Assembly (NCBI RefSeq): GCF_017654505.1
Contig: NC_054570.1
Coordinates: 854,074 to 918,073, forward strand
Direction: 5' to 3'
Origin: Polyodon spathula
Taxonomy: Eukaryota; Chordata; Actinopteri; Acipenseriformes; Polyodontidae
Length of the DNA: 64,000 bases
Under the pieces are notes generated by a model. The model searched no databases. It had not been told where the DNA came from and saw only the letters and a list, made by a program, of their open reading frames with translations. Shown here piece after piece: positions 1,340 through 64,000 of this stretch. Position numbers and translations under genes: made by a program. Within the stretch, counting starts at the first letter, position 1. Every line of letters begins with the position of its first letter.

Positions 1340-2245
1340 CATCTTGTATCTTGTAAAGCGCTTTTTGATGGTGGTCCACTATGAAAGGCGCTAGATATAA
1401 ACGGGTTTAGAACCTGGAGCTGATGCATGGCTCACACACCCTGAAAGTGCTTTATGATGGTGATCCACTATGAAAGGCGCTAGATATAAACGGGTTTAGA
1501 ACCTGCATGGCTCACACACCCTAGTCTCGTATCTTGTAAAGTGCTTTATGATGGTGATCCACTATGAAAGGCGCTAGATATAAACGGGTTTAGAACCTGG
1601 AACTGATGCATGGCTCACACACCCTAGTCTCGTATCTTGTAAAGCGCTTTGTGATGGTGATCCACTATGAAAGGCACTAGATATTGTAAAGTGCTTTGTG
1701 ATGGTGATCCACTATGAAAGGCGCTAGATATAAACGGGTTTAGAACCTGGAGCTGATGCATGGCTCACACACCCTAGTCTTGTATTGTAAAGTGCTTTGT
1801 GATGGTGCTCCACTATGAAAGGCGCTATATAAAGTAAATCTTGGACCTCGACTACGTACCGAAGTGTGTGGGATCAGAGCAATAGAACATTTCACGAAAT
1901 CTCACTACCACTAGGTGATACTTTTGGATCTATATTTGCCCAGATCTATACCTGGAGCTGATGCATTCACACACCCTAGTCTCGTATCTTGTAAAGTGCT
2001 TTATGATGGTGATCCACTATGAAAGGCGCTAGATATAAACGGGTTTAGAACCTGGAGCTGATGCATGGCTCACACACCCTAGTCTCGTATCTTGTAAAGT
2101 GCTTTATGATGGTGATCCACTATGAAAGGCGCTAGATATAAACGGGTTTAGAACCTGGAGCTGATGCATGGTTCACACACCCTAGTCTCGTATCTTGTAA
2201 AGTGCTTTATGATGGTGATCCACTATGAAAGGCGCTAGATATAAA
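1340..2245. repeat. 103-bp satellite derived from a transposon 3' tail
   Basis: The unit is about 103 bp and contains ttgtaaagtgctttatgatg, gatccactatgaaaggcgct and ataaacgggtttagaacctg. Roughly eight full or partial copies occur in direct orientation. The segment around 1784-1832 ends in ggcgctatataaagtaaa, which resembles the 3' tail of common vertebrate SINE/LINE elements, so the satellite may have grown from such a tail (inference). The array runs to within ~45 bp of the C1 exon of the Ig gene on the minus strand. Confidence 0.9.
1836..1947. other. Unreversed (parallel) complement of the 103-bp satellite
   Basis: This stretch does not match the flanking satellite directly or as reverse complement. 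When every base is complemented without reversing the order, it reads as the satellite: aaatcttggacctcgactac corresponds to tttagaacctggagctgatg, and ccactaggtgatactttt to ggtgatccactatgaaaa. The match runs for about 112 bp with a handful of small indels. Normal array sequence resumes on both sides. An ordinary inversion gives a reverse complement and cannot produce this. A data-processing or assembly error is the simplest explanation. Confidence 0.85.
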
Positions 2246-2289
2246 TATATGTATATGTAATCTGCTGTAGTCGACAAAATCGTTCCTAC

Positions 2290-3548
2290 CTGCATAGCTG
2301 ATTCTTGTGTGACTCACTAGACATGTGATTTCAGTGCCAGTGTTCCACACTCCGTTTTCAAACTGCAGGCTGGAGTTCTTGCTATAGGTCCCATCCGAAT
2401 TCAGCATGAATGATCCTTGTTTCTCAATTACTGGTTCCCGGGATGGGGAGTAAACCCAGGACAGGTTCAGATCAGAAGGGTAAAAACCCATGGCGCTGCA
2501 AATCAGGGATCGTCCACGCTGCTTCACTGAGCGAGCGAGGAGTCGGATTTCTGGGGTAGCTGATAAGAATTTATACAACATCAATACAGCATATTGGTCA
2601 ATAATAAATAATGAGGATGTAATTTTAATGTAGGAAATGCAGCTCCACTCGGAATATATCAGCATTTTAATTCTACGTGCCTTTTTTGCCATCTCAAAGT
2701 CTTATCTACCAATTATCTAATGTCTGTGTGTGTGTCTGTGTCTGTATGTCTCTGTGTGTGTGCTGTGTCTGTGTGTCTCTGTGTGTGTGCTGTGTTTGTT
2801 TAAAATGCATGGCAGGTATTTAAATGAACAGTATTTTGATGGGTTTGGGTTTGATGGCAAGGGTTAGTTGCAAAGGGAAAGACTGTACTAAGTTTTTGTT
2901 AACATGGTTATGTGACAGTGATCCCCAAATATCTGTTCAATAAACCATGTCTGGTTAATAAAGTCAAATAACATTTTTAGGTGTATTTATATGTCTGTAG
3001 ATCATTTAATTCACTAGAAGTAATATTTACACTGCGATAGAATTGCAATGGGGCTATAGTGTTAAATAATAATGTTTGTTGTTGTCGATGTCAGTTATTG
3101 TACTCTTGAAAATACTGTACAAACAGACACTGACAAATAAACATGAAGAAAAAACACCACTGATAAAGCAGTTGTGTTTTAAACAGATAGATATTTACCT
3201 TTCACAAAAAGTAATATTTTGTTCACAATCTGGTCTTTCGCAGCTCTGTAAAAATGTACATGACAGCTATACTCTCCTTCATCGTACGCGCTGACATTAC
3301 GGATGGTGAGGATTTCGTAGCTGTGATTTTCACTCTGGAAAATAGATATTCTGCTGTTTTCTTCGAGGGGCTCTTCTTTGAAAGATCTCTTCTCCTGGTG
3401 TGCTGATTTCATGTACCAGTGGTATACAAACACCGGCAATCCAGTCTGGTTCTTCAGAGCGCAAGTAATGTTCACAGTCTGTCCTGGAGCGACTGTAAGA
3501 GACTCCGGGTACTGAAGAAATTGTACCGCGATACACACTGGAGCATCT

Positions 3549-3595
<47 letters not shown>

Positions 3596-4125
3596 TACAA
3601 GACGAATATATTGATTTTCAATATTTTCTGATAAACAAACCAATAATAAAAAAAAAACTAAATATTGTATTAATTCAAAGAAATATTTAGAATAACAAGA
3701 GCCTACAACTAGAAATATGAAATAATAATACTAATAATAAAATGAATCGATATCGATGTTATTTTGATGATTAATAACAAAACATGACCATGACATTGAT
3801 TTCTGTGATTATATATGAATAAGGTTTATGCTGAACATTAATATAAGTGCGCTGTGCTGGTTTAAAATCTGCAGATAAGAAAAGGGTCAATTTGATGCAC
3901 GTTTATAAATGAACACTAATGATGTGTGATCAACGGGTTTGGTCATAATAAACCATTACTAATAAAATGCAAAATGCGTATGCCGTAAATGCGTATTAAT
4001 AGAATCTGAAACAAAAGTCTATTCATGATTTATAAATTATTAATCCTGGTTTAATGTTATTTAAGTAGCTACATTAATAAACAATACAGTTATGAATTAA
4101 GTTATTGTCTTTTTTTAAGGCAATC

Positions 4126-4188
<63 letters not shown>

Positions 4189-4948
4189 TATATTCTAGGC
4201 TAGTCAGTTATCGATAAACCAGCTTCAGGATCAGAGTATAAATTGTAAACGCATACTGAAAGTGTCATTAAGCTTGTTATAAGATGTCACAAAGCTGTCC
4301 ACTAATAATATATCTTTTAAATTGCATTGTAAAGGACAGAAATACCTAATTAATATTAATCAACAATTTTAAAACATTTTGCAAATCCTAAAGGTCATTT
4401 TATAAAGCAAATGCTGAATTATATAAAAAAAAAAAGTTTGTCTACTTTATCATAGAGTAGTGTGTAAATTTATTCGAACAACCTGTTGCTTCTGGAGTTT
4501 ATCAGACTCTTTTCTTGACAAAGTAGCAATTGTACAAAAGCAAGTCTGTGGATGCAACTTCAAGAAAAATTGAAAAATTGAATCAAATTACACAGACGGT
4601 TTTGAGAAAGCACACAGGCACAATGCCAAGAAGATGCCAAGCTGTTACTGATGTCAAAAAGGCCCATACCAAATATTAACATTAAACAACTTTTCGGACA
4701 TTGCTGTGTTTTTAGTTTTTAACTCACTTCGTGTAAGATGTGCTTGCAATAATGAGTAATTTCGTGTGAAAAGCTCAATAAATGACAAATCTTGAGGTGT
4801 TCAAATACATTTTACACTACTGTATAGATATATAATGCACGCAATAGAAACACAACATAAAGGCTATGTATCTGCATAACACACACACACGATACTCACT
4901 TAGCCAGATGAACATGAAAAATAAGGTTTCCGCTTTGTAGCGTTCCAT
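2290..4948 (-). CDS. Immunoglobulin V-C1 cell-surface receptor, partial (SIRP/B7-like layout)
   Basis: Three exons read on the minus strand, all joined in phase 1 as usual for Ig domains. Exon 4900-4948 encodes a leader starting MERYKAETLFFMFIWL. Exon 3199-3546 encodes a V-set domain with the first Cys in NITCALK, the core Trp in YHWYMK and the DEGEYSC second-Cys motif. Exon 2290-2559 encodes a C1-set domain with LICSAMGFYP, the core Trp in LSWVY and the CLVSHT motif typical of C1 domains. Several N-glycosylation sequons are present (NIT, NQT, NHS, NVS, NSS). The donor after the C1 exon (AG|gtagga at 2289) implies further exons, but the sequence to the left is satellite and no transmembrane exon is visible. 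The leader-V-C1 order fits SIRP, B7 or similar receptors, and I cannot assign an orthologue. If it has a charged transmembrane residue it could pair with the nearby DAP10/DAP12 adaptors (inference). Confidence 0.8.
3551..3592. repeat. (TAA)n microsatellite
   Basis: About 14 units lie directly upstream (on the minus strand) of the V-exon acceptor of the Ig gene. They interrupt what would normally be a polypyrimidine tract; on the transcript strand it reads (TTA)n, so it remains T-rich. Confidence 0.9.
4128..4186. repeat. (AT)n microsatellite
   Basis: Pure AT dinucleotide run of about 58 bp in intron 1 of the Ig V-C1 gene. Confidence 0.95.
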
Positions 4949-7720: not shown

Positions 7721-10423
7721 ATGGACCTCCCACTTCTGCTGGCGATCTGCAGCTTTGGAGCCTCAGCTCTGGGTGAGTCACTGCCTGTTACAAATGTTAG
7801 AGAACTAGTGGAAATAAGAGAGATCTGTTAGAGCATTTTACAGCAACCGGGAACCCCTTGAATTACATAAAACACTTATTTTTAGTGGCAGCCCTTGTGA
7901 TTCTCCAGTACTGTAAAACGCTCCAACATTTTTTTTAAAGAAAAAGGACAGTCCCCTAAAAAATTAAATGCTATTACATACAGGTTATGCCATCTCTTAT
8001 GGTAAAAGTACAGTGGGAATCTGATTTTATGTAACTTGCATTTGAGACACAGCACATCAGATAGATTGACATTGGGATTGTGGCAGCCGCTCTTGTATCC
8101 CAGGCTGCTGTGTCTGGAAAGTTATTCCTCCATTTCTACCCCTGAGCTTCCCTGAAGAAATCAGAGGCTGATTGAAGAATCTTCAATAATTCAGAATCTT
8201 CAACAATTCAGACTCTTCAACAATTCCACCAGAACACTGTAGAGACAGATTCTGAACCAGTGCAGCACTAATGTGTTTTTTAAACCCAGAGCAGACACGT
8301 TACAGTTAACTTAATATATGTTAGTGCAATGGGCCTCAGTCCTAAACCAATCCATACATCAACTAAACAATCTGACTTCCTTAACATCTACAAGTATACA
8401 CTCTAAATATATGTACTTGAGTTCATGTGAAGATGGGACGGTGATTAATACACAGTTTTTTTTTCTTACTCAGTTAGCAGTGCTGCAGACCTGGAAGGAG
8501 GTAAGATAAAGGTTTCTGTGCATTTAATGAAACCACACATTATCTAGCTCCTGTAAAGAATTCCCTTGTATTTTCTACAGGCATCTCTTTTATTTACTGA
8601 TATGTTTTCCCGTGATATGTTGTACCCTTGAAGAGTGTTCAGAAATTGTCCCACAATGTTTATGTGTACCATTAAGAAAAATGAAATGAACCTCTAAATA
8701 ATTCAAAGGTATTTTAACGCATGTTGTTGTTGTTTGTTTTTCTCTCTTCAGACCAGTCATTGAAGGAAGATGACCCTTTTTATTATAGTGAGTTAAGCAC
8801 ACATATTCAAAGTATAAGAAACCTGCTGATTAATGTTACGTTAACATATTTAATTACATGCTGCTTTGTAGTTTGCCCATATCCTTAACAAAAAAAAAAA
8901 AACAGTCAAAATTAGAACAATTTGACATTTCAAAATCTAACATGAAATGCTACTAGTATTATGGCTTCCGATAGACTTTTGCAATTTTGTAGTTTCTTTC
9001 ATTACATGATGTTAAATAAAAAAATCTAAATGATGTTCATATAGTTGTTTTTTAAATTATGTCTCAATCCTAAAATTCTAGGTGGTGCAAAACTTTTTGC
9101 CAGAGCTGTGTTTTAGAATATTAACTGTCCACAGTTATTGATTTTGCATCACTAGAAGTATAAAGATGTAAGAGGAAGTCAGGAAGTATAATAATGAGTA
9201 ACAATAATGATCTGCTGTGTTTCAGATTACAAGACCCTATGGATTGGGGGGCTGGTCTTCGCTGTGGTCTTGTTCCTAATGGGAATCATCCTCATCCTCA
9301 GTAAGTGAACTGACCCCTGAAAGAGGATCTGGATACAATCTAAATGAATGTGCTGCCATAGCCATTATATAGCAAAGCTATGGAGGCTCCATGAACTTTA
9401 ATTTAATTCAGGGGACTGAATGACACATAATTCCAATGTTATTATGCATAATTACAATGTACTTCATGTGGAAATAAACTCAAGATCATTGAGCTCTGGA
9501 GGGATAATGAGTGCTCTAATCTCATTGGCTGGGAGGTTTACAATGCACTTCAATGGTAATAAGCTACAAACTGTAGCAGGAATGCACGCTGGATCTTAAA
9601 GCTTTGTAAGCACACCTTTCATTCTGAACAGATTCTCTGTGTTTTCATTGCAGGCAGAAAGTGTCGTTGCAAGTTCAACCAGCAGCAGCCGTAAGTGACT
9701 TCCCTCAGGTTCCTAATCGTCTTTCTTTAACATCCTGTCAGAATATCAGCATTGTCAGTTTAATAAATAAATATGCATGTACTTAGTGTTACTATATTGT
9801 CTGTTCAACCTTAAACATTTCAACTCCCCCCCAGCAGTGCCCTTGGTACCAAGGTCTATTTAATGAAAGTTGAATAACATTTTATTTTCATCTCATTTTT
9901 AGAACTGGTGAACCTGACGAAGAGGTGGGCAGTCTGAGAGCATCGATCAGACGTGAGTGTCGTGAGTAAAGCATATATTGTAAACAGGAGTGTCTGATAG
10001 AGATGCTTTATTGCTACAGGCTTGTGTCATTGGTACAGTGATATTGTAAAGAGATGCTTTATTACTACAGGCTTGTCCCCTGTCCTCTCAAACAAGACAC
10101 ATGGTTTGCTTCCTGGGAGCTGGGAGAGCTTACACATATAAACTATAACCTCCTGCTGCTGGAAGTGGTCGCGGGAACTTGTCTATTAGTCTCATACTTG
10201 GCCTTGGACACAGACCCTGTCTAACACTAACATTGAACTGTATATATTTTACCCAGAGTAACACTAGGCAGTCCAACATTAGTGTGAAAACAGATGGTGG
10301 TGGCTTGTGTTAAGACTGACTTTGCATGATGTTAACGGACTTTATTATGGTCTCTTTTAAATGCTTGTTCTTCCAACCTTGCCTCCCTTGTCATTGATAG
10401 GAATGTCTTCTAGGAGGCAGTAA
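7721..10423 (+). CDS. FXYD1: FXYD1 (phospholemman), Na,K-ATPase regulator
   Basis: Seven coding exons: 7721-7772, 8474-8500, 8752-8787, 9226-9300, 9654-9690, 9903-9952 and 10401-10423 (300 bp, 99 aa plus stop). The protein has a leader (MDLPLLLAICSFGASALG), a short acidic ectodomain, the FXYD signature region, one transmembrane helix (IGGLVFAVVLFLMGIILIL) and a basic cytoplasmic tail. The stretch SRKCRCKFNQQQ then TGEPDEE, and the tail SIRRMSSRRQ, are close to mammalian phospholemman (SRRCRCKFNQQQ, SIRRLSTRRR). The RRxS site for PKA/PKC phosphorylation is therefore conserved. FXYD1 binds the Na,K-ATPase alpha subunit, and phosphorylation relieves inhibition. Oddity: splicing 8787 to 9226 gives PFYYN instead of PFxYD. 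An acceptor before the ATG (7716) indicates a non-coding first exon. Confidence 0.92.
8818..9110 (-). mobile_element. Tc1/mariner-type MITE, degraded copy A
   Basis: Located in FXYD1 intron 3. The right end (gtggtgcaaaactttttgcc to agctgtg at 9110) is the inverted terminal repeat of the element seen intact at 50601-50946. Internal landmarks such as attatggcttccgatagact and tgtctcaatcctaaaattct match that element in reverse orientation. The other end is too worn to define. Confidence 0.75.
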
Positions 10424-11060: not shown

Positions 11061-11444
11061 CGTCTATACCTGTTATTTATTAATTTGTTGATTTATTGAT
11101 TTATATGTATCAATTACTTCATACAGAGTAAGGGGCTCATGATGCTTATGGATTTTGAACGCAGGATTCCCAAACCAAATCGGAATTGTTTGATTGTCCT
11201 TCAATACTGGTTAACAAGGCATATCAGCTTGGTATTACTGGAGTTTTAGCGCTGCCAAAGCTTTTACAATGTTACAGATTTGTTTGCTCTGCAAATCCAC
11301 CCCTGGCACTCATTCTGTAATATTCAGAAGCTGCATCTGTCTGCTGTAAATCAGTACTGTCTGTCACTTGGACCGGGCTTAACTGAGTCCCGCACAAAAG
11401 ATTAATTCTCAAACTGAACGCAGTTCGAATTCAAGGAAACACAT

Positions 11445-12475
11445 GTACATGGATTAGGGCATGGTTAACATGTAGAAAACAGAAAGTACTGATTAGAGGA
11501 AAAACCTCAGAATGGAGTGTGGTACCACAGGGATCAATATTAGGTCCTCTGCTATTCCTAATCTACATTAATGATTTAGATTCTGGTATAGTAAGCAAAC
11601 TTGTTAAATTTGCAGACGACACAAAAGTAGGAGTGGCAAACACTGTTGTAGCAGCAAAGGTCATTCAAAATGATCTAGACAAGATTCAGAACTGGACAGA
11701 CACATGGCAAATGACATTTAATAGAGAAAAGTGTACTGCACGCAGGAAATAAAAATGTACATTATAAATATCATATGGGAGATACTGAAATTGGAGAAGG
11801 AATCTATGAAAAAGACCTAGGAGTTTTTGTTGACTCAGAAATGTCTTCATCTAGACAATGTGGGGAAGCTATAAAAAAGGCTAACAAGATGCTCGGATAC
11901 ATTGTGAAAAATGTTGAATTTAAATCAAGGGAAGTAATGTTAAAACTGTACAATGCACTAGTAAGACCTCATCTTGAATATTGTGTGCAGTTATGGTCAC
12001 CTCGCTATAAAAAAGATATTGCTGCTCTAGAAAGAGTGCAAAGAAGAGCGACCAGAATTATTCCGGGTTTAAAAGGCATGTCATATGCAGACAGGCTAAA
12101 ATAATTGAATCTGTTCAGTCTTGAATAAAGAAGACTACATGGCGACCTAATTCAAGCATTCAAAATTCTAAAAGGTATTGACAGTGTCGACCCAAGGGAC
12201 TTTTTCAGCCTGAATAAAGAAACAAGGACTAGGGGTCACAAATGGAGATTAGACAAAGGGGCATTCAGAACAGAAAATAGGAGGCATTTTTTTACACAGA
12301 GAATTGTAAGGGTCTGGAATCAACTCCTCAGTAATGTTGTTGAAGCTGACACCCTGGGATCCTTCTAGAAGCTGCTTGATGAGATTTTGGGATCAATAAG
12401 CTACTAACAACCAAATGAGCAAGATGGGCTGAATGGCCTCCTCTCGTTTGTAGACTTTCTTATGTTCTTATGAGT
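11445..12475 (+). mobile_element. 5'-truncated, inactive non-LTR retrotransposon (LINE) 3' end
   Basis: Reading across frames gives a reverse transcriptase palm region with VPQGSILGPLLFLIYINDL and the FADD catalytic box (about 11609), then the thumb region and a C-terminal region with the VRPHLEYCVQLWSP motif. The frame shifts between about 11720 and 11775, and stops occur at 12103, 12127 and near 12366, so it is dead. It ends in a tail of the type ctttcttatgttctta, the common 3' end of CR1/L2/Rex-like fish LINEs. The exact clade is not resolvable by eye. It lies between FXYD1 and FXYD7. Confidence 0.88.
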
Positions 12476-52961: not shown

Positions 52962-55900
52962 ATGGGGTTGAAGAAGGAGGTGGTGCAGCTTTGTGCTTTA
53001 GCAGCGCTGTTCTACAGTAAGTACTGAACTGGTCTGAAGTTACGTATAGGTTATGTATAGAGTCTAGAGAGGAACGTCATGTGTACAAACTTGAACACGT
53101 TGCTTTTTTTTTATTAATACAGCTTTTTTGCATTTAATATTGATGTGATTTAATAGCCTATATGGTTTTCCCAAAGTTGTCCAGGGGTAGATTTAAGCAC
53201 TCTCTCACTCAGATATGGTTTAATTTATTATTTAAGTCCTACCCATACCACAGTGTGCAATAGCGAAGGTATTTTTTTCCTGTCCTACATTTATCAGCAC
53301 ATTTTATTTCTGAGTTAAAAGATTTTAGTTGATCGAACCCCAGCCAAAATCAATTTGACTCAATATGCTCTAAAAAGAACTTGCCTTGACTTTCCCAATA
53401 TATTTCCTAATATTTATTATGCATGTCATTTTTGTCAGGTGTCTGTTCTATAAGCACAGCTGGGACCAAGTTTGCGACAGTCATCACTGAGAATTATTCT
53501 AATGCATATGGGCCATCCACGTCTAGCCTGGTGTTTACTGCACAGTCCCTTGGCACAACCATAGTGACAGTCTTTGGCCCAGGCCCTAGATTTCCCCTCA
53601 ATCTGGAGATTAACTCAATAGAAAGCAAAGTTATTTCACTCCCAGGAAACGTGGAGGTCGCGGGCACTGTCAAGTCCTCCAATACCATTGTAATCGAGTC
53701 CAGCAAACCCATCACTGTTGTTCTGCTGAACTCCAAGCCCAAAACAGCAGATTCCACTGTTGTGTACCCTATAAATGAATGGGGAGTAGAGTACTTTGCC
53801 CTCACCCCAGATTATCAGAAAGCCTCCAAACAGTTTGCCATCATAAATGCAGAACAGCCAAACACCGTTGAGGTGGATCTGAAAGGGGACGTGAGATTTG
53901 AAGGGAAACAATATACAGCAGGTACAAAACTCACTGTGTCCCTTTCAAAGTTTGAAAGCTTTCAATTGCAGAGTTCTAACGACTTGTCGGGCACTAGAAT
54001 CAAGAGTGAGAAACCAGTAGCTGTAATCACTGGTCACACATGTTCAATGAAAAACTCTAATTGCAATACCCTTGTTCAGCAGCTGTTGCCCGTACCACAA
54101 TGGGGAACTACCTTCATTGTGCCTCCTCTCCCTTATCAGAACGATTTTGATCTAGTTTATGTAACTGCATCCCAGCAAACCAATTTCCAGATCCAATCTG
54201 GAAGTGAACTCAAGTCACTAGCTTTAGATCGTGGACAAAGTATTTCACTTCCAATAAGCCTCCACAAACCCCTATATATACATGCTTCAGCAGGCATACA
54301 GGTCTTGTATTACTGCACTGGCGGTAGAGTAGGTGGTCAAATGTTTGACCCGTTTTTGATGAATATTCTCCCCACTGACACATTTTGCCAAAAATATTCT
54401 GTACAAGGCCATGAAGGGTTTACAAGTCAAGCAATGGTTGTGTCAAAGACCGCAGACATCTCAGGAATTATGTTTGATAAGAAAGTTCAAAGCCTTGTTT
54501 GGACTCCGATCCCGGGCACAGAATTCTCTTGGGCACTCTCTGACTTTGGATCCCAGCCCATACAACACGTTGTGGAGCACCCTACTGCTGCCATTGGAGT
54601 CTACAGCATAGGAAAAGCTGACCAGAATGCATATGGATCTTCTGCACCTTGTTACAATCATTGTAAGTACAAGGATGTCATTAACAATGATTTTGGGCTC
54701 TGTGTTTCATTGGGTGAGAATTTGTTTTTATCTGCTTGGGTATAAAAAACAGGCCTGATCTGTTATACTGATCCTTTGCTGTACCATAGCAGCATGAAGA
54801 CATGTGACAGACACTCAAAGTACTGGGGGTGGGGAAAGACTGCTCTCACCATGTCCTACTTGTTTCTTGAATCTTTCTTGAATCAAGCCCTTGATACCAA
54901 AAGTCCTAAGCTGACATGTCCGACTTTGTGTTCCTCAGACTGTCAGTGATCTGAATGGAGCAAGCTTTGGACAGATTGTTCTTGCAAAGCAGATGTGTTA
55001 CTGGTGAATTGTGAGACTTCTTAAAATACATTAGATGTTCATAATTAAAAAAAGTATAAAGCATTTTTTATATGTAATGGAATGCATTTACCAAACAAAT
55101 GTGCAGAGCCACTGAGACACTCCTTCAAAGTCCTATTTACAGAGTTAGGACAGAAGGTTCTAGATATTTTTTACACAGAGAGAATGGAATGGGTTATCTA
55201 ACCATGTGGTTGATGCCGAATCATAGGAATCCTTTAGGAGACAACTTGAAAAAGTTTAGAGATCAACCAACAGCTGGGAACCGGATGAGTATAGAGCAGA
55301 CAAATGGTCATCTCTCATTTGTAAATTTCTTCTGTTCATCAGTTTGATTGTTCGAATGTTTTTTTCCACAGCGGACTGTCTGGAGATCACAGATGGGATC
55401 CAATATGCCACACTCATCACACAAAATTATTTGCCAGGCAATGATCCCCAGTTTAACTTGTCTATTTCCGCTCGCTCTGCAGCTGCCACTCAAGTATCTA
55501 TAAATGTACACATGCCTGGTTTTCCTATGTGTCTTGAACTTGAACAAAGCAGGAGCCAAGTGATTTCACTTCCCCAGACCCTGGAGGTCCAAGGTAGTGT
55601 CAGGTCCTCTAACATGATTGTTATCACATCACAGAAGCCCTTGTCATCCATTCTTATGAACTACAAGACCCGCACAGCAGACACCACCATTGTATACCCT
55701 GTTACAGACTGGGGTAATGAGTATTATGTGGTTACTCCAAACTATGGGGATCTCTCCAAGCTTTTTGCTATCATGAATTTGGAAAACTCAAACTCTGTTG
55801 ATGTGTACCTCACAGGGAAAGTGACCTTTAACCAGATAACATACATAAAAGGGAGTAAACTCACAATCTTTCTTTCCAAGTATGAGAGTGTTCAGCTAAT

Positions 55901-58900
55901 GAGCATGGACGACCTTTCAGGCACAAAGATTGTTTCCACTAAACCTGTCGGTGTAATAGCGGGCCACGTGTGTTCCAATCTCAATGTTAGGTGCAACGTT
56001 CTCTTTGAGCAGCTGCTACCTGTAACCAGGTGGGGATCATCCTTTATTGTACCACCTCAACCTTATCAGAGGAAGGATGACTATGTTTATGTTGCTGCCT
56101 CGCAGTCCACTGATGTTCTAATTCAGTATGGAGATAAAAAGGATTCCAAACAGCTCAAAAGTGGAGAGGTTATCTCTTTGAAAATAGACGGAACCACTCC
56201 CCTTTACATCACAGCATCCCGAAGTATCCAGGTCATGTTCTACAGTACTGGAGGATCAAGAGGCGAGTGGGGCTTTGATACATTTTTAATGAACGTTGTC
56301 CCAACCAACTTGTTTTGCAGTAAATACTTTATTCAAGGCTACGACAAATTTGAAAACCGATTACTGGTTGTGGCAAAACCTTCAGACATCTCAGAAATAC
56401 GCTTTGATAACCAGTTGCTGTTGAAAACGGTCACGTGGGCCCCAGTAAAAGGCACTGAATATTCCTGGGCTCATATTGAATATGGTCAGGAGGAAAAACC
56501 ACACTACATAGAGCATCCAAAATCTTCATTTGGTGTCTACAGCATTGGGACAGTATTATATAATGGATATGGATCCCCTGCACCTTGTGCAATAGACTGT
56601 AAGTATGGCAACTACATTTTATTTTATTTGATGGGGGGGGGGGTTGCTTTTGCTGATGCAAATATTAAGATTTATATCAAACATCTGAAATGCCAAAATT
56701 TTGATAATAAACCTTAATAGGAGATAATACTAATATTTAGAAAAAAATGAAAATGGACAAATGATTTACTGCTGTGTTTAGGGCCCAATATCTCGGAAAA
56801 TCCAGAAGTAAACAGTTCCAGACCCCTTTGAACAAAGTCTAAGAGCTAATTGACATTCTTACACTTTTCTGATGCCTCGTTCTCATTTCCTATGTAAGTG
56901 CTTTGCAAACATGCTCCTTGTTTTGACCACTCCATTATTCCAGCTGTACCCATAGACTCCTGTGAAAACAAGCAGTGCAGGACAGGAGAAAAGTGTCAGC
57001 CAGTAAACGGCCAGGCTACGTGTGTCCCAGTATCCAAGGCAGAATGTATCGCTTGGGGAGACCCACATTACCGCACCTTCGATGGACGAAGCTTCGATTT
57101 CCAGGGCACCTGTACCTACACCATCGCCAAGACTTGCGGGAATGAAACCCTGCCCAGCTTCAATATCGAGGCAAAGAACGAAAACCGGGGTAGCACACAA
57201 GTGGCCTACTTAAAACATGTCAACGTCCAGGTCTATGGCTTAACGATAACTATGGCCAAATCTGAAAATGGCAGAGTGAGGGTAAGAACTATGTAGTCAA
57301 TACTGAGTGTCACTGAAAAAAAAAAAAAAAATCTTATGACCATGTGGATTTCTCCACAATTAATTGACATTTGAAAAGTGTGCTCCATAGAGCTCTGTGT
57401 CTTTTTCACAAACCATCACATTTCTAGCAATATAAATAACTGTTTTGTTTTCTATTTCAGGTCAATCAGAACATGTATTACTTGCCCAGCACGCTGCAGG
57501 AAGGAAAAGTAAAAATCTATCAAAGTGGAGGCCACGCTGTTCTGGACACCGATTTTGGTCTCAGGTTGTCATATGACTGGAACCACCACCTCACTGTGTC
57601 TATCACAAGCACCTTCCTTGGTCAGCTGTGTGGTCTATGTGGTAATTACAATGGTGACTCAAAAGATGATTTCGTAATGGTGGATGGAAAAGAGGCCAAC
57701 AATGCTGCGTCCTTTGGGACAAGCTGGAAAGTTAAAGATGATGATCCTGCATGCTGGGATGACTGCAAGGGAGAGTGCAAGACCTGCGAGTCCAACCTCA
57801 TCTCCAAGTACCAGGGACAGGAGAGCTGTGGTCTGCTGGCCAAAGTTGATGGGCCTTTCAGGGACTGTCATGCAGTCATCAAACCAGAGCTCTTTATGGA
57901 CGGCTGTGTCTACGATGTGTGTTTGAATGACGGCTTTAGGGTTTTCCTCTGTCAGGCTTTGAAGACCTATGCAGATGCTTGCCAGGCAAGGGGAGTTGAA
58001 GTATACAACTGGAGAAAGCAGTCCCAATGTCGTGAGTATCCAGGCTGCACAATCATCCAATATTTAAATTAACATGTTATGAACAGTACTTACAAAACAT
58101 ATCAATGTATGCAAAAGGGATTAAATATATGCATGCGCTACATTCACTTTTTGAAGACGAGAGACTTGTATAGGCACTGAATTCCATTTTATTCTGTCTT
58201 GTCCCTGTAGCTCTGACATGTCCTCCCAACAGTCACTACGAGTCCTGTGGCAGTGCCTGTCCTGCATCCTGCTCCAACCCTAGTGCTTCTGTCAACTGCA
58301 AGTTGCCCTGCACCGAGACCTGCCAGTGTAACGAAGGCTTCGTTCTCAGTGCTGGAGAGTGTGTGCCTGTCAAGAAATGTGGCTGCACCTACCAGGGCCG
58401 ATACTACCCACCTGGGGTCAGACTCTGGTCTGACAATAGCTGCGAGCAATCATGCATCTGTGACGCAGGCACTGGCAAAGTTCAGTGCAGAAACACAAAA
58501 TGCAAGCCCTTCGAAGTTTGTAAGGTAGTTAAAGGAGTAAGGGATTGTTATTCCAACAGAAAGGCAACGTGCAGTGCCAGTGGGGACCCGCACTACATCT
58601 CCTTTGATGGACGCAAGTTTGACTTCCAGGGAACCTGCTTCTACCAGCTAGCAGCTGTCTGCAATTCCACTGATGAACTGGAGAAGTTCCAGGTGCAGGT
58701 GCAGAATGAGCACCGAGGCAATAAGGCTGTGGCTTACACACGGCTCGTACAAGTCAACGTGTACGGCCACATCATCATCATCAGCACAGACCATGCAGGG
58801 AAGGTCCAGGTGAGTGTTTGTGTCTAATGTATATTCTTAGATACAAACTGACAATTTAGGGATTTCCCTCATTCAAACTCTTACAGAGGTAATACATGCT

Positions 58901-61900
58901 TTACTGGCACAGAGCTGCATTTTAGAGGGATGTGTAATATAATTTTATTTGATGATTTTTTGTATGATTACATTAATGTTGATTATATTTTCCTACTTTA
59001 CTAATAAACTAGGTGGACAACCTGTGGGAGAACCTACCCTTGAGCATAGAAGACAACAGATTATCAATCCAAAGCAAAGGCTGGAAAGCCATCATTCAGA
59101 CCGGTTTCGGATTGGAGGTGACTTTCGACTGGAACAGCCGAGTGACAGTCACTGTACCTGAAAGTTATGCAGGCGCTATGTGCGGTCTGTGTGGAAACTA
59201 TAACCAGGATGGCAAGGATGACTTGACTATGAAGAACGGGCAGCTGACCCAAGTCCCAGCAGAGTTTGGAGCGAGCTGGAAGACAGAAAACATCCCCGGC
59301 TGCAGTGACCAGTGCAAAGGAACGTGTCCAAACTGCGATGTCACTCAGAAACGTCAATATGAGACCAATGCATACTGTGGCATAATGACGGATCCGACTG
59401 GGCCGTTCAGAGATTGCCATGCCAAGGTGCCCCCTACATATTTCTTCGATGACTGTGTGTTTGATGCCTGCCTCTACAAGGGCATGCAGACTGTTGTGTG
59501 TAAGGCTATTAGTGGCTACGTCACCAAATGTCAGGAGGCTGGAGCCCAGGTTTATGCATGGAGAAAAGACACATTTTGCGGTAAGTGTAGTTTTTATTTC
59601 AATCTTCTGTAAAAAGTATAGTCCTACTTGAAACAGTTTATGGATTATTTGAATTTTACTCCCCTCAGCTCCTGTCTGTCCTCAAAACAGCCACTATGAG
59701 TTGTGTGCCAGTGGATGCCCATCAACGTGTGCCAGTCTCACCACTGGCACCCAGTGCGATGCTTTGTGTGAGGAAGGATGCCAGTGTAATGAGGGATTCA
59801 TTCTCAGTGGAGTCCAGTGTGTTCCCATTGCCCAGTGTGGCTGCATGTACAGTGGCCGCTACTACAAGGCTGGGGAAATGTTTTTCCCTGATGGATTGTG
59901 CACGAGTCAGTGCACGTGCGGTGCCAGTGGAGCTGTGCAGTGCCAGCCAATCACATGCGGGGAGAACGAGGCGTGCCAAGTAAAGAATGGTGTGCAGGGA
60001 TGCCATCCCCTAGGGGAGGGGAAGTGCACTGCTTCTGGGGACCCACACTACACCTCATTCGATGGGCTGAAATTCGACTTCCAGGGCACCTGCACCTACA
60101 CACTGGCAAAGCTCCTGTACACGAACGGCAGTCTTACACCTTTTGAAGTGCAGGTGGAGAATGAGAGCTATGGCAAAACGAAGGTGGCTGTCACTAGAAT
60201 GGTGGTCACTAAGGTGAATGGTTACAGCATCACTATGGAGCAGAAGGTCCAATGGAGAGTGAAGGTGAGCTGAGATGGAAGAGTATCTCTTCTGCCATGT
60301 TTTGTTATTATGCAGGAAAGCACTATTTGAGAGGTCCTGTCATTCAAAACACAAGCACAAACATTGCGTGCCTGCAATTGTTCCTAAATCGGTCTTTAAT
60401 GAATCAGGCATTTTTGTTGGATGCAATGAACAAAATATTGTATTTAGTCTAGAAACAACTTGTCCCTTTCTGTATAGTTAATATTCCCAATTAAAGAATC
60501 TGAATGCTTAATGAATCTTTCTGTTTCCACTATTTTTCAGTTTCCTTACAAGATTAAATATTTTCTTTTAATTAAAGATATCCCAATCATTTTCAGGTGA
60601 ATGGAATCAATACAAACCTACCCCTGAAACTGGACGATGGAAAGGTTTCCGTGATCCAGCAGGGTAAAAACATCATCCTTCAGACAGAGTTTGGGCTGAA
60701 GGTCCTCTACGATTTGGTGTACTACGTGCAGGTGACCGTCCCTGGCAACTACCGGAACAAGGTAGGCGGACTTTGTGGCAACTTCAACGGCAACAAAAAG
60801 GATGAGTTTGCACTGCAGGGTGGCGGACTCACAGAGAACGTCAATGCCTTCGGGGCCAGCTGGCAAGTCTTTGTAGAAGGAGCCAAGTGCAACCATGGCT
60901 GTGACCAGGACTGCCCCCGGTGTGACGAAACCAACAAGACCAAGTATAGCAAAGCAGACAGCTGTGGGATCATCTCCTCCACAACGGGCCCCTTCGCAGC
61001 CTGCCGCTCCGTCATCAGTCCTGACATTTACTTTGAAAACTGTGTCTTTGATGTATGCGTCACCGACGGGCTGAGGGACATCCTCTGTAGGAATCTGGAA
61101 GCCTACACTGCTGCCTGCCAGGATGCTGGAGTCATCATCAAGCCCTGGAGGAACGATGGGTTCTGCTGTAAGCAATTCATTGTTTATCTTGTTGCAATTG
61201 ATATAATGAGTATGTTACACTGGTGTTTTAAGAGTATTGAATTAACTGGGGCTTTTTTAATGTATTTTAAGTATTTCTATGTCTCATTTTAGCAATGACT
61301 TGTCCAAAGAACAGCCAGTACGAGGTTTGTGCGGACACCTGTGGCAGTGCTTGTGCAAGTATCATCGCCCCCCTCACCTGCACATCTCAGTGTTATGAGG
61401 GCTGCCAGTGTGACCCTGGCTTTGTGTTTGATGGGGAACAGTGTGTATCCTCTGGAAACTGTGGTTGTTCGCACAACGGGAGATACATGAAGGTCAGCCC
61501 CATTCCTCGTCTTTTATTGTGAAATTTTTTGGTGACTGCAAATTTGTTTATGAAGCTATTTGGTTGCGACAGAGGATATCAATAGCAATTTCCTTTCAAA
61601 CAGTAATTCCTCTTGCAACAGAAAATATTTCATTGTGGATTATAAAACCAGTTCCTGTGCCGCTGCATGGCCTCTAGCAGAGCGAGATCCTGTACAGTGT
61701 GATCTATCTCTAGATTCCTGCTCAATTTGACCCCGTTACAATGTACTCCCTTTTCTTCCCAGGTTGGGGAGTCCCTGATGTCTGCAGACTGCTCCAGGAA
61801 GTGCACATGTAACCCCAAGGGAGCGGTGAGCTGTGAGACAATCCAATGCACCACAGGGTGTGCTGTGCACAACGGAGCCCAGATCTGTTTAGATGAGCGT

Positions 61901-64000
61901 GAGTTTGATAATGGCACTGCTGGCTTTAATGGTGGAAGGAAAGGACAGCATGGTGCTGAATTGTGATGGTAATAACAGATCTGTGCCTTACTCTGGTAGG
62001 CCATCCTGCTGCTGCTGAATCTTGTGTAAAGATGGTGGCAGTAGAGAGATAAAAGGCATTCCTTTAATCTTGGTGACTCCTGCATAACTTCAGTTGTTTC
62101 TACACAAAATGTCTTCGATGTTGGAACGTTTGCATGCTCCTGGTATTACCTTTATCTTAATTGTGATCTTTGAGATGATGTGGTCTATTCTTTTTTCTGC
62201 TCCGACTTACTCTCCTACCTTGGCAATTTAATTAATCCTAACCTACTTCTCCTTTCCTACCCACCTGCAGTTGTGGATCTATGCAAAAAGAAGCAGTGCA
62301 GGAACGGGGAAACGTGCCAACAAGTGGACAACCAGGCTGTGTGCTTACCACTATCGAAAGCGGAGTGTATCGCTTGGGGAGACCCACATTACCGCACCTT
62401 CGATGGACGAAGCTTCGATTTCCAGGGCACCTGTACCTACACCATCGCCAAGACTTGCGGGAATGAAACCCTGCCCAGCTTCAATATCGAGGCAAAGAAC
62501 GAAAACCGGGGTAGCACACAAGTGGCCTACTTAAAACATGTCAACGTCCAGGTCTATGGCTTAACGATAACTATGGCCAAATCTGAAAATGGCAGAGTGA
62601 GGGTAAGAACTATGTAGTCAATACTGAGTGTCACTGAAAAAAAAAAAAAAAATCTTATGACCATGTGGATTTCTCCACAATTAATTGACATTTGAAAAGT
62701 GTGCTCCATAGAGCTCTGTGTCTTTTTCACAAACCATCACATTTCTAGCAATATAAATAACTGTTTTGTTTTCTATTTCAGGTCAATCAGAACATGTATT
62801 ACTTGCCCAGCACGCTGCAGGAAGGAAAAGTAAAAATCTATCAAAGTGGAGGCCACGCTGTTCTGGACACCGATTTTGGTCTCAGGTTGTCATATGACTG
62901 GAACCACCACCTCACTGTGTCTATCACAAGCACCTTCCTTGGTCAGCTGTGTGGTCTATGTGGTAATTACAATGGTGACTCAAAAGATGATTTCGTAATG
63001 GTGGATGGAAAAGAGGCCAACAATGCTGCGTCCTTTGGGACAAGCTGGAAAGTTAAAGATGATGATCCTGCATGCTGGGATGACTGCAAGGGAGAGTGCA
63101 AGACCTGCGAGTCCAACCTCATCTCCAAGTACCAGGGACAGGAGAGCTGTGGTCTGCTGGCCAAAGTTGATGGGCCTTTCAGGGACTGTCATGCAGTCAT
63201 CAAACCAGAGCTCTTTATGGACGGCTGTGTCTACGATGTGTGTTTGAATGACGGCTTTAGGGTTTTCCTCTGTCAGGCTTTGAAGACCTATGCAGATGCT
63301 TGCCAGGCAAGGGGAGTTGAAGTATACAACTGGAGAAAGCAGTCCCAATGTCGTGAGTATCCAGGCTGCACAATCATCCAATATTTAAATTAACATGTTA
63401 TGAACAGTACTTACAAAACATATCAATGTATGCAAAAGGGATTAAATATATGCATGCGCTACATTCACTTTTTGAAGACGAGAGACTTGTATAGGCACTG
63501 AATTCCATTTTATTCTGTCTTGTCCCTGTAGCTCTGACATGTCCTCCCAACAGTCACTACGAGTCCTGTGGCAGTGCCTGTCCTGCATCCTGCTCCAACC
63601 CTAGTGCTTCTGTCAACTGCAAGCTGCCCTGCACCGAGACCTGCCAGTGTAACGAAGGCTTCGTTCTCAGTGCTGGAGAGTGTGTGCCTGTCAAGAAATG
63701 TGGCTGCACCTACCAGGGCCGATACTACCCACCTGGGGTCAGACTCTGGTCTGACAATAGCTGCGAGCAATCATGCATCTGTGACGCAGGCACTGGCAAA
63801 GTTCAGTGCAGAAACACAAAATGCAAGCCCTTCGAAGTTTGTAAGGTAGTTAAAGGAGTAAGGGATTGTTATTCCAACAGAAAGGCAACGTGCAGTGCCA
63901 GTGGGGACCCGCACTACATCTCCTTTGATGGACGCAAGTTTGACTTCCAGGGAACCTGCTTCTACCAGCTAGCAGCTGTCTGCAATTCCACTGATGAACT
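52962..64000 (+). CDS. FCGBP-like secreted VWD-domain protein, partial (3' end beyond window)
   Basis: Exons: 52962-53016 (leader MGLKKEVVQLCALAALFYS), 53439-54662, 55372-56598, 56944-57281, 57461-58031, 58211-58809, 59013-59580, 59669-60264, 60597-61167, 61293-61492, 61763-61898, 62271-62602, 62782-63352 and 63532 onward. All junctions keep frame, with phases alternating 1 and 0. Domain order: signal peptide, two IgGFcBP_N domains, then repeated modules of VWD (GDPHY near each start), C8 and TIL. The family (IgG Fc-binding protein, zonadhesin, mucins) forms disulphide-linked mucus components. GDPH sites undergo autocatalytic cleavage between Asp and Pro, and five GDPHY sites are visible. The fish gene family is large, so I give the family name, not a strict orthologue. 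It differs from human FCGBP in having two N-terminal IgGFcBP_N domains. Like human FCGBP it shows near-identical multi-VWD repeats. Confidence 0.92.
53439..54662 (+). other. IgGFcBP_N domain 1 (single exon)
   Basis: 408-codon exon in phase 1/1. Features typical of the family's N-terminal domain: GTKFATVITENY at the start, KVISLPGNVEV, TADSTVVYPINEWGVEYF, the DLSGTRIKSEKPVAVITGH motif and EHPTAAIGVYSIG near the end. It shares this layout with the next exon. Confidence 0.9.
55095..55335 (+). mobile_element. LINE 3'-end remnant
   Basis: In the intron between the two IgGFcBP_N exons. Degraded match to the tail of the LINE at 11445-12475: the region with ttacagagttaggacagaag, ttttttacacagagagaatg and ctctcatttgtaaatttctt parallels 12275-12460 there. 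No intact frame. Confidence 0.65.
55372..56598 (+). other. IgGFcBP_N domain 2 (single exon)
   Basis: 409-codon exon, collinear with the previous one: GIQYATLITQNY, QVISLPQTLEV, TADTTIVYPVTDWGNEYYV, DLSGTKIVSTKPVGVIAGH and EHPKSSFGVYSIG. The two domains are clearly homologous but diverged, so the duplication is old. Exon length and phase are conserved. Confidence 0.9.
56944..58031 (+). other. VWD module D1 (Cys-rich linker, VWD, C8)
   Basis: Exons 56944-57281 and 57461-58031. A short Cys-rich stretch (CENKQCRTGEKCQ) is followed by AWGDPHYRTFDGRSFDFQG, CGLCGNYNGD and the C8 region (CGLLAKVDGPFRDCH, FMDGCVYDVCL). The CGLCG vicinal-cysteine motif is intact. Confidence 0.9.
57045..58679 (+). repeat. 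1635-bp segment duplicated at 62366-64000
   Basis: Offset is 5321 bp. Exons and both introns match, including a 16-A run (57315 and 62637) and intron sequence. One mismatch was found by eye (58303 T versus 63624 C, silent Leu). The left boundary is abrupt, inside the VWD exon. The right boundary lies beyond the window. Confidence 0.93.
58211..59580 (+). other. TIL + VWD module D2 with C8
   Basis: Exons 58211-58809 and 59013-59580. The TIL domain starts LTCPPNSHYESCGSAC; the VWD contains ASGDPHYISFDGRKFDFQG and CGLCGNYNQD; C8 includes CGIMTDPTGPFRDCH. Confidence 0.9.
59669..61167 (+). other. TIL + VWD module D3 with C8; CGLCG altered
   Basis: Exons 59669-60264 and 60597-61167. TIL starts PVCPQNSHYELCASGC; VWD contains ASGDPHYTSFDGLKFDFQG. 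Where D1, D2 and D4 have CGLCG, this module reads GGLCG (Gly codon GGC at 60764-60766). C8 includes CGIISSTTGPFAACR. Confidence 0.9.
61293..61898 (+). other. TIL domain split over two exons
   Basis: Exons 61293-61492 and 61763-61898 encode a TIL-type Cys-rich domain (MTCPKNSQYEVCADTC, GCQCDPGFVF). The phase-0 intron inside it is not present in the other TIL exons. It joins directly to the Cys-rich linker of the next triplet. Confidence 0.85.
62271..63352 (+). other. VWD module D4 (repeat of D1)
   Basis: Exons 62271-62602 and 62782-63352. The linker (CKKKQCRNGETCQQVDNQ) is clearly diverged from that of D1. From the codon for Cys in AECIAWGDPHY (62366 onward) the sequence is identical to D1, intron included. 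Confidence 0.92.
63532..64000 (+). other. TIL + VWD module D5 (repeat of D2), cut by window end
   Basis: Corresponds to 58211-58679 with one silent T/C difference (58303 versus 63624). By comparison with D2 this exon should continue about 130 bp past the window. Confidence 0.9.

Follow-up and report, generated by a model that had tools for sequence, protein, structure and literature searches.

The reference assembly of the American paddlefish, Polyodon spathula, contains blocks of sequence written as the base-by-base complement of ordinary sequence, mostly repeats, with the order of the bases left unreversed. We consider it very probable that these blocks are an assembly artefact rather than real DNA. 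The window, by which we mean the whole stretch of 64,000 nucleotides that was analyzed, corresponds to C37:854074-918073 in an assembly of 1,541,705,134 bases in 4,204 contigs.

A complemented block within a satellite array

Positions 1342-2245 of the window carry a tandem array of 103-bp units. On the plus strand, repeat analysis and phase place the left part of this array at 1342..1833 and its right part at 1950..2245, both in normal orientation. Local alignment and phase locate a block at 1836..1947, slightly longer than one repeat unit, in which the plus strand complements the flanking 103-bp repeat base by base, in unreversed order. The preliminary description had placed the block at exactly these coordinates. 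The complement of the block aligns to positions 2044-2152 over 114 columns, 91% of which are identical. For positions 1816-1965, which comprise the block with small flanks, the local alignment score is 175 for the complement, 32 for the direct orientation, and 14 each for the reverse complement and the reverse. An ordinary inversion or inverted duplication is ruled out by the reverse-complement score of 14 versus 175. The claim that about 112 bp here represent an unreversed complement of the satellite was also borne out against chance, as the match stands far above the maximum score of 26 reached by 500 mononucleotide shuffles. Scores for a further 1,009 pieces of 119 bases each, taken from the window, likewise did not exceed 23. 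These two comparisons and the relabeled controls described below rule out a chance match.

The block is in step with its surroundings. Counted in phases of 103, the left flank stops at 51, the block spans phase 56 through phase 61 of the following unit, and the normal repeat picks up again at 62; register with the array is kept at both edges. Relative to the neighboring units, the block has five inserted bases, two missing bases, and a few substitutions. Neither the register nor these differences had been mentioned in the preliminary description. The 103-bp unit is also dispersed through the genome, with at least 45 matches listed and the best 40 of 1,238 candidates scored. A genome search with the block sequence itself (E ≤ 10) gave one candidate and one match, the block, a result that does not by itself prove rarity. 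That the complement form occurs once, whereas the direct unit has 1,238 candidates, is a point against an artefactual origin.

Several other features of the window deserve mention. A nearly perfect 36-bp tandem repeat occupies positions 1-298 and about 770 bases further leftward (in L002), approximately 1 kb in all. Positions 353-740 and 920-1310 are adjacent copies of about 390 bp that, judged by eye, are near-identical apart from several small indels, and this pair is possibly another poorly resolved region of the assembly. On the minus strand, 2207-3730 holds immunoglobulin-type exons with C1-set and V-set domains, and the immune receptor-like gene to which they belong ends beside the satellite. 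At the far end of the window, 53411-64000 contains a row of IgGFc-binding-protein-like exons, with PF17517 in 53411-54745. Near-identical repeats occur among these exons (the open reading frames 57440-58072 and 62761-63393 read alike) and reflect either recent tandem duplication or assembly duplication.

Further events on the contig and across the genome

The scan was extended to the window with 20 kb leftward and then to 284 kb of C37, with N at 9,500 of these positions. Besides the satellite block, the 284 kb contain two more independent events, three in all. Two nonsense relabelings of the same 284 kb (A with G plus C with T, and A with C plus G with T), both of which swap G+C for A+T, gave no match at E<1e-3 in either order. 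A reverse match at -20952 was not counted as an event, as it represents a satellite unit on the minus strand that matches the same satellite block.

The second event comprises 55 bases at -3974 to -3920 (L002 6026-6080) that are the plain reverse of window positions 4825-4771, with two mismatches and no gap over 55 bp. Its cleanness is a second point against an artefactual origin. The mirror form is embedded in a (TA)n tract beyond the window, 8.7 kb leftward of the normal copy. This normal copy, at 4771..4825 on the plus strand, was recognized from the 284-kb scan and a genome search as a member of a dispersed repeat, for which 40 matches (itself included) of 234 candidates were scored. A genome search with the mirror form matched only itself.

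The third event lies on C37 about 73 kb to the left of the window, where L007 7224-7286 complements L007 6973-7031 with 90% identity over 63 columns. The order on C37 is a clean copy, then an indel-rich second copy, and then the complement block, after which normal sequence returns, as judged by eye. The second copy (L007 7041-7223), recognized by eye and by a weak alignment with a score of 35, resembles an unpolished piece of a long read. A region on C24 with 79% identity to query bases 1-151 of 430 appears, from its sequence, to be related to this locus and may be its homeologue. Within the 1,600 bases read there, C24 has neither the duplicate nor a complement block. A 700-base stretch of L007 aligns to C24 in direct orientation up to 7064, before the block, with a score of 215 (reverse, 28; reverse complement, 52), and the complement of L007 7224-7325 aligns to C24 with a score of 72.

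To determine how far such blocks extend through the assembly, we used as a probe a 711-bp piece of a LINE-like repeat at 11400..12110 on the plus strand of the window, identified by a reverse transcriptase domain in 11387-11749 (PF00078, E 2.6e-17). The direct probe yielded 2,520 candidates in the genome, the best 40 of which, itself included, were scored and are 92-100% identical. The unreversed complement of the probe, searched on both strands, yielded 26 candidates, all of which match (E 4e-53 to 7e-6, identity 73-92%) and which are distributed over 22 contigs. Two relabeled versions of the probe, one with unchanged G+C, returned no genome candidates; an empty answer of this kind shows nothing alone, and the identical search did match both the direct and the complement forms of the probe. 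The genome search for further repeat complements that the preliminary description had proposed thus came out positive, with 26 loci versus none in the relabeled controls. A systematic process lies behind the complement blocks, and the features of the blocks suggest that this process is computational.

The matched spans of the 26 loci total 3,610 bases. As a rough guess, set against 2,520 candidates of no more than roughly 0.7 kb each, the complement share of this LINE-like repeat is of the order of a few per thousand, a figure that is not transferable to unique sequence. Events are not confined to satellites, since a (TA)n tract, low-copy sequence, and LINE-like copies also contain them. There is likewise no support for complement-form repeats that propagate as a family, as the satellite block and the mirror form of the second event each matched only themselves.

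Polarity, register and noise of the blocks

All 26 LINE loci were taken with their flanks to describe the anatomy of the blocks. The polarity is that of a complement in place (direct plus complement, or reverse complement plus reverse) at all 25 loci that have a LINE piece in the neighborhood; the one locus of the 26 left out of this count, L041, has no LINE flank in the fetched stretch. L050 has an additional piece of opposite polarity (reverse complement) on its left. The block at L045 is uncertain because an alignment in normal orientation runs across its position. The block alignments are 47 to 783 bp long. The clearest arrangement is that of L025, which reads direct at 11392-11523, complement at 11521-11844, and direct again at 11844-12320. 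L029 alternates between direct, complement, direct, complement, and direct, with two blocks within about 650 bp.

The 54 block edges comprise 22 without a LINE flank within 60 bp, one with differing polarity, and 31 at which the junction could be measured. Phase agrees within 30 bp at 20 of these 31 junctions (within 10 bp at 11), and at the remaining 11 it jumps by between 39 and 377 bp, in some cases as a duplication. Because 11 of the 31 junctions jump and 22 of the 54 edges are without a flank, the data do not establish a simple replacement in place for all of the blocks.

Jumps of this kind bear on a different artefact, arising at a later step of assembly, in which a gap-filling or scaffolding tool (SSPACE-LongRead, GapFiller, or GapCloser) would have inserted pieces by way of a faulty reverse-complement routine. 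The blocks at L026, L033, and L036 are extra copies next to a normal copy of the same segment, with jumps of -234, -148, and -224, and they resemble a badly closed gap; the clean 55 bp of the second event, in its (TA)n tract, would also fit. However, GapFiller and GapCloser operate on Illumina reads, and filling from such reads would not yield indel-rich blocks. SSPACE-LongRead leaves N in gaps. Two blocks alternating with normal sequence over some 650 bp, as at L029, are also hard to obtain by gap closing. Although all three tools are named in the available text on the paddlefish pipeline (PMC8042750), we consider a fault of this type unlikely.

Indel noise was measured by alignment to one repeat copy, not from reads, excluding gap runs of at least 8 and alignments with E above 1e-8. 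Per 100 aligned bases, the blocks have 7.90 inserted, 4.41 deleted, and 10.38 mismatched bases versus 3.29, 1.58, and 8.15, respectively, in the flanks, and insertions outnumber deletions in the blocks. None of the 27 block alignments has indels below 1.5%, compared with 18 of the 45 flank alignments. Noisy flanks are common as well (indels of at least 1.5% in 27 of 45), which is a third point against an artefactual origin. Gap columns are below 1.5% in 11 of the 31 measured neighboring flanks, and the rest are noisy. A gap-free flank adjoins the block at L028 (17% gap columns) and at L036 (13%), and at L030 a distance of 16 bases separates a flank with 0.2% gap columns from a block with 4.4%. 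We infer that the noise in the blocks is that of PacBio long reads.

Blocks with extra noise, in place, in phase, and of varied length, are also what would be expected if the sequencer or base caller had briefly swapped the labels A and T, and likewise C and G, in the course of a read, so that the raw reads already carried the complement. Such a swap of labels, which would likewise be an artefact, requires no error of orientation. It does require two exact label exchanges to occur simultaneously, and a fault confined to single reads should be outvoted where reads overlap. The literature searched, in the text available from it, contains no report of such a swap, and we hold this explanation to be improbable.

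The preliminary description had offered two readings, an artefact and copying of a strand in parallel orientation. The first gained support from the many indel-rich blocks and from the PacBio and Illumina pipeline. In the second reading, a polymerase or repair process would have replaced stretches of about 50 to 800 bp on the spot with their unreversed complement, so that the DNA itself would contain the complement blocks, a scenario to which we attach almost no credence. The blocks are statistically beyond doubt, as this reading needs them to be. To our knowledge, however, no polymerase copies in parallel orientation. Phase is kept at many junctions, indel-rich blocks adjoin gap-free flanks at some loci, neither of the two block sequences searched (the satellite block and the mirror of the second event) was found elsewhere, and the related region on C24 is ordinary; each of these observations stands against a real copying event. 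Real copying is disfavored only by inference, from the block noise, the ordinary copy on C24, and the pipeline, and not by reads.

A 2014 paper does claim, in its available text, DNA synthesis by PCR with parallel primers (PMC4304224). The product of such parallel-stranded synthesis would be, like the present blocks, the unreversed complement of its template. Unlike the present case, the claim concerns PCR with parallel primers, and the present data do not need it. Since both the noise and the placement of the blocks speak against it, parallel-stranded synthesis is disfavored here.

Origin and consequences of the blocks

A read from the minus strand must be both reversed and complemented before it can be placed in contig order. 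We propose that stretches of noisy PacBio reads lying on the minus strand of the contig were turned into contig order with their letters left uncomplemented. Reversal without complementing would write the complement where the normal sequence belongs and keep it in phase with the flanks, with the noise of the raw read included. A single slip of this kind would account for the observed polarity, phase, noise, and wide scatter of the blocks. The alternation at L029 could then reflect a consensus path that hopped onto an uncomplemented read and back again.

The assembly procedure is compatible with this proposal. According to the available text of its description, Platanus contigs and PacBio Sequel reads were passed through DBG2OLC and Pilon, followed by SSPACE-LongRead, SSPACE_Standard, GapCloser, GapFiller, and Pilon again, the Pilon polishing being done with Illumina reads (PMC8042750). 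DBG2OLC, as described in the part of its paper at hand, lays out raw reads, patches them successively, and calls a consensus (PMC5004134). The faulty step would most likely be the DBG2OLC layout or the DBG2OLC consensus module, because it is there that PacBio reads become contig letters. Illumina polishing would be unable to mend a block, since no Illumina read matches such sequence, and the raw-read noise would therefore stay in the block while the flanks remained open to cleaning. The blocks are scattered and indel-rich, some lie beside a gap-free flank, and the pipeline used PacBio reads followed by Illumina polishing, all of which supports an artefactual origin. We regard reversal without complementing at the DBG2OLC stage as the probable form of the error. 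The available portions of the DBG2OLC and Sparc papers describe no such fault.

The proposed error has partial parallels among known ones. Reads or contigs can be joined in the wrong orientation in hybrid long-read assembly. Such errors resemble the present one in that they are faults of strand orientation in a long-read layout and may leave noisy, unpolished sequence behind. Unlike the present blocks, which are complemented in place and correspond to no orientation of DNA, they give reverse complements. Palindromic or inverted chimeric reads, described for whole-genome amplification and ancient-DNA libraries in the available text of two reports (PMC13265396, PMC3946424), are also technical in origin and place strand-related copies next to each other. 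Their copies, however, are antiparallel reverse complements, whereas the present blocks are parallel complements. The literature searched, as far as its text was available, contains no description of a complement-block artefact.

Overall, no new biology is needed to explain the blocks, and nothing is learned from them about the copying of DNA. If the blocks are an artefact, a published chromosome-level fish reference holds sequence that is present in no cell, at 26 places and over 3,610 matched bases for one 711-bp repeat probe alone. Sequence of this kind can disrupt gene models, mask repeats, appear falsely unique, and lead comparative studies astray. Its detection is simple: the repeats of an assembly are complemented without reversal and searched against that assembly. 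If assemblies made by the same route carry such blocks, this search would offer a cheap check of their quality.
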